NCBI GenBank assembly: GCA_902774215.1
Contig: CACYHU010000026.1
Span: 1-64,000, forward strand
From: an uncultured Chloroflexota bacterium
GTDB taxonomy: Bacteria; Chloroflexota; Anaerolineae; Anaerolineales; Anaerolineaceae
Length of the DNA: 64,000 nt
Reading direction: 5' to 3'
Shown: positions 21,508 through 22,328 of the stretch, in pieces
Layout of the letters: each line of letters starts with the position of its first letter
Position numbering within the stretch: position 1 is the first letter of the stretch
Notes under the pieces: generated by a model
The model's database searches: none
What the model was told of the DNA's origin: nothing
What the model saw: the letters and a program-made list of their open reading frames with translations, nothing else
Position numbers and translations under genes: made by a program

Positions 21508-21691
21508 TTTTTATACAACGCCTTTTCCAAAATAATTACTCATTTCTATTCCATTATACCCATAATTATACGCAAATATTCAAAGGAAAAATGAATTATG
21601 GAAATGGATCGAAAAGCTTCTTCAGGATGCATATTATTCTGTGGGACAGGGCCGTGTTCTGAATTGTTACCGTTATTCAAAATAAAAAAAG

Positions 21692-21726
21692 AACCGCTGA
21701 ACAAATCTTTTCATTGTTCAGCGGTT
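21692..21726 (-). terminator. Terminator of the His-rich protein gene
   Basis: AACCGCTGAACAA / TTGTTCAGCGGTT: perfect 13-bp stem, 9-nt loop. On the minus strand it runs into CTTTTTTTATTTT, a textbook intrinsic terminator, about 40 bp after the stop at 21766. Confidence 0.88.
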
Positions 21727-21765: not shown

Positions 21766-21987
21766 TTACCACCGGTGGCCGCGTCCCATCGGCCCATAAC
21801 CCATATGGTGGTGGTGATGGTGCGGGCAGCCATGATACATCGAATGATGATGGTAAGGATACCACATGTCCCAGCCGCCAAAACCGCCGAAAGGATAGAT
21901 CCGGGAACGGCGATAGCCATAATACGGGCGTGTGAACAACCGTCCGATGAAGGACAGTACAACAATAAATAAAATCAAACCGAACAT
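21766..21987 (-). CDS. Small His/Tyr/Gly-rich membrane protein under Mn2+ riboswitch control
   Basis: 73 aa with an excellent ribosome-binding site (AAAGGAGAG). One N-terminal helix (MFGLILFIVVLSFIGRLF) is followed by a Tyr/Arg/Gly-rich stretch and a histidine-dense tail (YHHHSMYHGCPHHHHHHMGYG) with one Cys and several Met, a plausible metal-binding surface. The yybP-ykoY riboswitch at 22095-22224 lies directly upstream on the same strand and a strong terminator lies directly downstream, so this is a single-gene Mn2+-responsive unit. Usual targets of this riboswitch are exporters (MntP, P-type ATPases, TerC). Metal buffering or an exporter accessory role is inference. Confidence 0.8.
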   Translation of the reverse strand: MFGLILFIVVLSFIGRLFTRPYYGYRRSRIYPFGGFGGWDMWYPYHHHSMYHGCPHHHHHHMGYGPMGRGHRW

Positions 21988-22094
21988 CTTTACTCTCCTT
22001 TCGCAGGGGGCTCAGCTCCTGTTCCGAATCGGCCGGGCAAACCCGTATTGACCGGAGCAGGTGAAGTATGTCCTGCACTGATTTCGTCGTGAAT

Positions 22095-22224
22095 AAAAAA
22101 GAGACTTTCGCCACGACGATTGTCGTTTAAAAGTCTCGCCTGTTATGCTTAGCCGGGGGATCAACGGATCACCGTATTGACGGCGGGGGCACCACTTTTT
22201 GTGGTTGGCTACTCCCTTTCTTCA
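22095..22224 (-). promoter_or_regulatory. yybP-ykoY (Mn2+) riboswitch with expression-platform terminator
   Basis: Read on the minus strand, the aptamer starts GAAAGGGAGTAGCC (22222 downward) and ends TAAGCATAACAGGCGAGAC (to about 22133). These are the two conserved ends of the yybP-ykoY class, with an internal hairpin CCAC-AAAAA-GTGG and the segment CGTCAATACGG. The final GAGACTTT (22137-22130) can instead pair with AAAGTCTC (22108-22101), giving a hairpin followed by TTTTTTATT: an intrinsic terminator. Aptamer P1 uses CTTT to pair with the 5' AAAG, so ligand binding should prevent termination (ON switch). Its own promoter lies immediately upstream. Confidence 0.9.
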
Positions 22225-22230
22225 TTTAAG

Positions 22231-22259
22231 ATAATACCCTTTTTTTGTGCAGATTTCAA
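22231..22259 (-). promoter_or_regulatory. Promoter of the riboswitch transcript
   Basis: On the minus strand: TTGAAA (22259-22254), 17-bp spacer, TATTAT (22236-22231). The start site is expected near 22224, just at the riboswitch 5' end. Confidence 0.75.
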
Positions 22260-22328
22260 GTCTTTTTCCGGCTTCTAATTTATTTCTAATAAAAAATTAA
22301 ACTGAATAAATCAGCGCTTTCTTAAGAT

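Follow-up and report, generated by a model that had tools for sequence, protein, structure and literature searches.

We describe a single-gene unit in which a real and conserved riboswitch of the Mn type precedes a target of a new kind, a small His-rich membrane protein. The window, a stretch of 64,000 nucleotides from a contig of an uncultured member of the Anaerolineaceae, carries this unit on its minus strand, where a promoter, an aptamer, an overlapping terminator and an ORF for a 73-aa protein follow one another and a closing terminator ends the series (Table 1). A first-pass annotation made from the letters alone had claimed the promoter, the overlapping intrinsic terminator, the strong terminator after the ORF and the single-gene organization, and each of these was recovered; the overlapping terminator takes in the 3' arm of the aptamer. 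Every one of the 11 complete-aptamer leaders retains both promoter hexamers (the second as TATTAT or TAATAT); a scan of the window with the promoter consensus alone was not significant (6 sites versus 3.4 ± 1.8 in shuffles). Neither the leader terminator nor the closing terminator was listed by a terminator scan because the rule of that scan (loop 3–8, plain stem) excludes both. The window leader is longer than those of its relatives by 58–63 nt, the distance from GGGAGTAGC to the ATG being 229 nt versus 166–171 nt.

Table 1. Features of the riboswitch unit and their positions in the window.
Feature	Position	Strand	Basis or remark
Direct repeat TTAGAA-N5-TTAGAA, presumed OmpR/CiaR-like response regulator operator	22273..22289	-	11/11 complete-aptamer leaders
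Promoter TTGAAA-N17-TATTAT	22231..22259	-	10/12 consensus matches; hexamers kept in 11/11 leaders
yybP-ykoY-type aptamer without P4	22130..22219	-	R1 match 22223-22128; pairs counted on 12 leaders
P1.1	22219-22216 with 22133-22130	-	
L1 GGAGUAG	22215-22209	-	
P2	22204-22192	-	
P3	22184-22152	-	
L3 (GUCA) adenosine, matching Mn-contacting A41 of L. lactis	22178	-	invariant in 12/12 leaders; role from PMC6754395
Intrinsic terminator sharing P1.1 3' strand, then six T	22095..22137	-	92.7% of cells paired (12 leaders); seen in fold
Read-through hairpin, terminator 3' arm (22118-22110) with 22094-22085	22085..22118	-	98.1% of cells paired
Shine-Dalgarno GGAG	21995..21998	-	sequence
73-aa miniprotein, type A: helix 2-18, Arg-rich flank, 11 His	21766..21987	-	ORF; homologues
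Closing intrinsic terminator	21684..21726	-	13-bp stem, 9-nt loop, seven T

The class of the aptamer was examined with covariance models. The Rfam yybP-ykoY model proposed as a check in the first-pass annotation (RF00080, 177 positions as run) gave no match in the window at its gathering cut-off, none at E ≤ 1 on 701 bases and none across the whole 4.78-Mb genome. On 61 relatives, ten gave matches at E ≤ 1 and none was above the cut-off. When 147 genomes of the family were searched with a pattern derived from the leader, 11 loci from outside the genus matched, and the next gene encodes a P-type ATPase at eight of these, a DedA/VTT protein at two and a DUF368 protein at one. The absence of a covariance-model match is one of the outcomes that the first-pass annotation had named as refuting. 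RF00080 at gathering misses all 11 of these same-family leaders, however, so its negative result for the window is weak evidence and was judged uninformative. Model R1 (102 positions, 23 pairs) was built from 13 leaders outside the genus, namely the 11 found with the pattern together with L007 and L009, two of the ten loci at which RF00080 stayed below its cut-off. On the 64-kb window R1 gave a single match at 22223-22128 (37.1 bits, E 8.3e-9), where the E-value is rough because the calibration was short and the score is partly circular because 11 of the 13 seeds were picked by a motif of the window leader. Two parts that lie outside that motif agree as well, namely the 3'-terminal GCRAGAC element and the P3 3' arm. 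Among 16 further genus sources R1 scored 33–41 bits at 13, which correspond to 11 distinct leaders and two duplicates; three damaged genus leaders scored 16–19 bits. The miniprotein leaders, at 34–41 bits with R1, are a divergent group compared with the family matches outside the genus, 56 of 57 of which reach at least 47 bits.

These 57 matches, obtained with R1 on the 147 family genomes, precede 38 P-type ATPases, 11 MntP, five DedA, one GDT1, one DUF368 and one unassigned gene, and none of the 57 is followed by a His-rich miniprotein. One representative each of the ATPase, DedA, DUF368, MntP and GDT1 targets was checked in Pfam; the rest were assigned by blastp. The ATPase, MntP and GDT1 families include known Mn exporters (PMC9334652), and because they are among the family targets of R1 the assignment of the window aptamer to the yybP-ykoY-type Mn riboswitch class is well supported, with Mn2+ as the probable ligand of what would be an ON switch. 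The class named in the first-pass annotation was borne out; its description as near-consensus has to be qualified, as RF00080 does not match.

R1 was also run on 249 genomes of the class and matched at 67 places, of which one is in the genome under study, one had already been counted and 65 are new. By blastp, 28 of the new targets are P-type ATPases and one is a DedA protein. The 36 targets that had no blastp match were sorted by eye into 14 TerC, seven Na/Ca exchangers, four (perhaps seven) PF04298 peptidases, five M50, one M48, one distant unrelated gene and one false match; five families of these by-eye targets were confirmed in Pfam with one representative each. When the 600 nt after the aptamer were screened at 122 loci outside the genus (three with less than 500 nt downstream), none showed a small ORF combining a helix with a His tail. 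The screen flagged ten His-rich small ORFs in nine loci; nine of the ten are out-of-frame ORFs within the target gene, and in the remaining one (L226) no membrane helix is apparent by eye.

Several of these targets merit a record of their own. In Anaerolineae, Mn-type aptamers stand before DedA/VTT genes (L104, L117, L133, L134, L142, L196) and a DUF368 gene (L127; undecaprenyl phosphate translocase-like in Pfam), which may connect Mn with the recycling of lipid carriers. In other families of the class they also stand before PF04298 genes (L179, L187, L206, L214), before M50 genes (L202, L208, L224, L228, L233) and before an M48 gene (L201), mostly as judged by eye; at such membrane metallopeptidase genes they perhaps serve to compensate for mismetallated proteases. 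Sodium/calcium-exchanger genes follow the aptamer at L181, L182, L183, L185, L194, L203 and L216, one representative of which was assigned to PF01699.

The architecture of the leader resembles that of transcriptional yybP-ykoY riboswitches such as the one in Lactococcus lactis. Common to both are L1 (GGAGUAG), L3 (GUCA) with its Mn-contacting adenosine, and a P1.1 that competes with an overlapping terminator. According to PMC6754395, the corresponding adenosine of L. lactis and X. oryzae contacts Mn2+ by N7, and P1.1 of L. lactis suppresses strand invasion by the terminator (PMC11087558). GUCA is present in all 12 genus leaders examined, and GGAGUAG is kept in 10 of the 12 and altered in two damaged ones; P1.1 overlaps the terminator, with pairing counted on the same 12. 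Unlike the RF00080 class, the miniprotein aptamer has no P4 and lies below Rfam detection. A short AUAACA-type linker takes the place of P4 where a four-way junction would be expected, and because P4 is absent we file the aptamer as a variant of yybP-ykoY. The leader L046, upstream of a DUF368 gene, also seems to be P4-less.

Pairing was counted in an alignment (A4) of 12 of the 14 known genus leaders, L036 and L040 being left out. P1.1, P1.2, P2 and P3 are paired in 96.5% of cells compared with 94.9% in shuffles, and in a control with slid partners the value is 20.8–45.0%. Covariation in the aptamer is modest because pairs changed on both sides number two versus 1.1 in shuffles, and double changes in the terminator are not above shuffles (373 of 500). 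The miniprotein leader differs from that of L. lactis by an extra, covarying read-through hairpin. Two of its pairs are changed on both sides, a value reached by four of 500 shuffles, and its score is 0.246 versus 0.171 ± 0.023 in shuffles. In one leader, pair 107/132 has changed from U-A to A-U despite the loss of terminator pair 94/107 that this entails. From these substitutions the read-through hairpin seems to be under selection for itself, probably because it locks the mRNA once polymerase has read through.

The protein has the membrane helix and His-rich tail that the first-pass annotation had described, and an AlphaFold model gave helix 2-18 and a low-confidence tail (mean pLDDT 56.7). 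Two types of miniprotein occur, which are paralogues with a common N-terminus at separate loci, and the second paralogous locus is present in the same genome as the window unit. Type A is 71–73 aa long when complete and has 10–11 His, type B is 47–57 aa long and has 14–21 His plus Cys, and each has one N-terminal helix. In type A, Arg residues follow at 16, 20, 26, 27 and 29. From this Arg flank after the helix and the positive-inside rule the tail is predicted to lie in the cytoplasm, where it would face the inner side of the membrane. Within types, dN/dS is about 0.03–0.35 in 25 of 25 pairs, with dS near saturation in several; in type A and type B alike, the runs of His and Cys are maintained under purifying selection. 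Pfam and NCBIfam gave nothing above cut-off for the 73-aa protein, DUF3309 (PF11752) reaching 10.8 bits against a gathering value of 22.3. The PDB gave no match, the 73-aa protein had no relatives in GTDB contigs and no match in plasmids, and the type B protein had no match in phages.

Homologues with a conserved leader do exist, as the first-pass annotation had suggested looking for in Anaerolineae. An 11-row profile found 14 miniprotein genes or fragments in five of the 14 genomes of the genus; in the other 133 family genomes it gave one spurious weak match only. Genome G027, at 22 bits, was rejected as a further carrier, its ORF (L167) having a hydrophobic stretch and no His tail. A complete aptamer lies upstream of ten of the 14 genes or fragments, including one whose ORF is cut by a contig end and one with an in-frame TGA. 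Two further miniprotein leaders (L044, L045) are damaged in their 5' part, two fragments (L172, L175) have no leader, and two leaders (L036, L040) have lost their gene. Because several loci have decayed, the miniprotein gene is dispensable in some lineages. As a separate observation, L044 and L036 both lack the AAAGGGAGTAG part of P1.1/L1; the ORF is kept at L044 and absent at L036, and these natural aptamer-loss alleles in two genomes are useful controls.

Among GTDB contigs, 12 stretches contain a 20-base segment of the leader, and every one belongs to a MAG whose title says Anaerolineaceae, Chloroflexi or Flexilinea. Goat abomasum or jejunum is given in eight of these titles; the remaining four belong to RUG genomes, which we take to be rumen genomes. 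In five genomes of the genus the aptamer precedes the two miniprotein paralogues, one His-rich and one Cys/His-rich, and in three others (G010, G011, G012) an aptamer of 23–25 bits lies directly upstream of a P-type ATPase. The nearest ATPase homologue, chosen by similarity and not from a tree (39–42% identity to the query), has an aptamer in none of the five miniprotein genomes, each of which has at least one further P-type ATPase of lower similarity. All five also have MntP, which lacks an aptamer in each. A regulon shared with MntP was rejected, as nine MntP loci have no aptamer and eight have no repeat of the kind described below clearly above chance (best: 28 of 200 shuffles). In a genus-wide R1 search only miniprotein leaders scored above 24 bits; this search was not exhaustive because 150 candidates per genome were scored and the three ATPase aptamers were missed. 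A weak aptamer of 23.8 bits at a contig end (L068; G002:C17:33-125), the target of which is off the contig, is nearly identical to the ATPase leader of G012 (L144).

A direct repeat ahead of the promoter points to a second input. It lies 13–14 nt from the -35 and 35–37 nt from the -10 element in all 11 complete-aptamer leaders, one of which has lost its gene, and five genomes hold 35 repeat sites versus six for the reversed pattern. On the other strand, 11 nt from a -10-like hexamer, the repeat precedes the P-type ATPase in G007 and G013 and HtrA (Trypsin and PDZ domains) in G013, with a weaker hexamer at HtrA in G005. It also precedes an HlyD-like adaptor in four genomes, with weak hexamers; a single adaptor was tested and fell below Pfam cut-offs. 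The combined score for repeat and -10 at the ATPase is 15–18 of 18 in all five miniprotein genomes, a level reached by 0 of 200 shuffles each; the first two of these five sites are how the link between repeat and ATPase was noticed. At ten of ten other ATPase upstream regions in the genus the score is 10–13, which 23 to 199 of 200 shuffles reach. CiaR sites of streptococci are TTTAAG-N5-TTTAAG with 10 nt to the -10 (PMC3091779). The geometry of CiaR/OmpR-type sites, an N5 hexamer direct repeat 10–11 nt ahead of the -10, is found here at the ATPase in all five miniprotein genomes and likewise at HtrA genes. Unlike CiaR sites, the repeat reads TTCTAA for TTTAAG, its regulator is presumed, and at the miniproteins it is reversed and more distant from the -10. 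An OmpR-family regulator with an envelope-stress role likely acts at the repeat. Separately, the repeat occurs in the miniprotein orientation at four YccF genes in four genomes (L255, L262, L266, L269) and at a GlsB-like gene (L270, below the Pfam cut-off), and it precedes a DnaJ-domain gene (L263); these genes are a candidate envelope-stress regulon of the genus.

The reading that we lean toward, with moderate confidence, is that Mn2+ switches the gene on, probably alongside an input from envelope stress, and that the product is a metal buffer tethered to the membrane or a site from which metal passes to an exporter. It builds on the anatomy of the unit, its conservation, its homology to Mn exporter leaders, the constraint on the coding sequence and the common repeat, which are observed. 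The P4-less yybP-ykoY-type aptamer would fold in the nascent leader, and Mn2+ would dock L1 to L3 and so hold helix P1.1. With P1.1 held, the overlapping terminator would be blocked and polymerase would read on, after which the 3' arm of the terminator would be trapped in the second hairpin with downstream sequence. The product would be a one-helix membrane peptide with its tail inward by the positive flank, and this tail, rich in His in type A and in Cys and His in type B, may bind divalent metal at the inner membrane face as an inducible buffer, or pass it to an exporter. An OmpR/CiaR-like response regulator acting at the direct repeat probably gates transcription as well, and the same repeat would serve the nearest P-type ATPase and the HtrA protease in the same genomes. 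We infer Mn2+ as the ligand, the ON logic, the topology, metal binding and the regulator.

For a membrane peptide rich in His, a role as metal buffer is the most parsimonious interpretation. His-rich metal-storage proteins of the Hpn type are short and His-dense, and Hpn itself is soluble and linked to nickel. Like Hpn, the miniprotein is short, His-dense and a probable metal buffer, a likeness of description and not of sequence; unlike Hpn, it carries a membrane helix at its N-terminus and is under Mn-type control. Tails of His prefer Zn, Ni, Co or Cu to Mn, and this poor fit of His chemistry to Mn2+ is the weakest point of the metal-buffer reading. Also counting against our main reading are the RF00080 mismatch, the modest covariation of the aptamer, MntP genes that have neither aptamer nor repeat, and the decayed loci.

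It is possible, if unlikely, that the miniprotein helix instead binds a P-type ATPase or MntP, in which case the riboswitch would control a Mn-induced modulator of the exporter and not the pump. This would fit the aptamer being upstream of the ATPase in G010–G012 and missing from the nearest ATPase in all five miniprotein genomes, where that ATPase carries the direct repeat too. However, the correspondence of ATPases between genomes is one of similarity and not of established orthology, and His/Cys-dense tails would be needless for a helix-helix regulator. A bolder version, to which we give a distinctly low probability, is that one lineage of gut Anaerolineaceae moved the Mn riboswitch from the exporter ATPase to membrane micropeptides directly tuning a now stress-regulated pump; if true, metal export would be controlled through a Mn-induced micropeptide, by a logic comparable to that of the one-helix regulators of the related SERCA pump. 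MntS of E. coli is 42 aa long, and we know of no His tail or aptamer in it. It is a small protein in Mn homeostasis that is proposed to act on MntP, with inhibition suggested (PMC4361602). MntS is made at low Mn whereas the aptamer here predicts synthesis at high Mn, and the two are likened without alignment.

We consider it improbable that the ligand of the P4-less aptamer is a transition metal other than Mn (Zn, Ni, Co or Fe); such a metal would suit the His/Cys tails better. The Cys/His-rich tail of type B, the divergence of the aptamer group in R1 scores and the absence of P4 agree with such a ligand, but the L1 and L3 motifs of the Mn site are kept, R1 derives from Mn exporter leaders, and the leader before the DUF368 gene (L046) seems to lack P4 as well. 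Least probable is a general envelope-stress peptide with incidental metal binding and Mn2+ as one signal among others, for although the repeat is common to HtrA, the weakly matched HlyD-like adaptor, YccF and DnaJ-domain genes, the His/Cys runs of both types persist despite sequence divergence, under purifying selection, and 10 of the 14 copies have a complete Mn-type aptamer.

Reported targets of yybP-ykoY riboswitches are Mn transporters and TerC-type proteins (PMC9334652), and the target here differs from these in being a His-rich miniprotein. In a literature search that had most subscription papers outside its scope, no paper joined manganese riboswitch with histidine-rich, Flexilinea with riboswitch, yybP-ykoY with DedA, or histidine-rich with small membrane protein and manganese; yybP-ykoY and histidine-rich do co-occur in two papers. 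Since RF00080 misses 11 of 11 family leaders, the yybP-ykoY class is probably under-annotated in Chloroflexota, and the escape of the P4-less form from Rfam likewise suggests that it is under-counted there. The miniprotein lineage, in two paralogous forms, shows that a yybP-ykoY switch can be re-targeted, and the re-targeted switch is a handle on a new kind of metal-handling protein. Our results point to an undescribed way of handling excess metal in a group of Anaerolineaceae known from ruminant guts.
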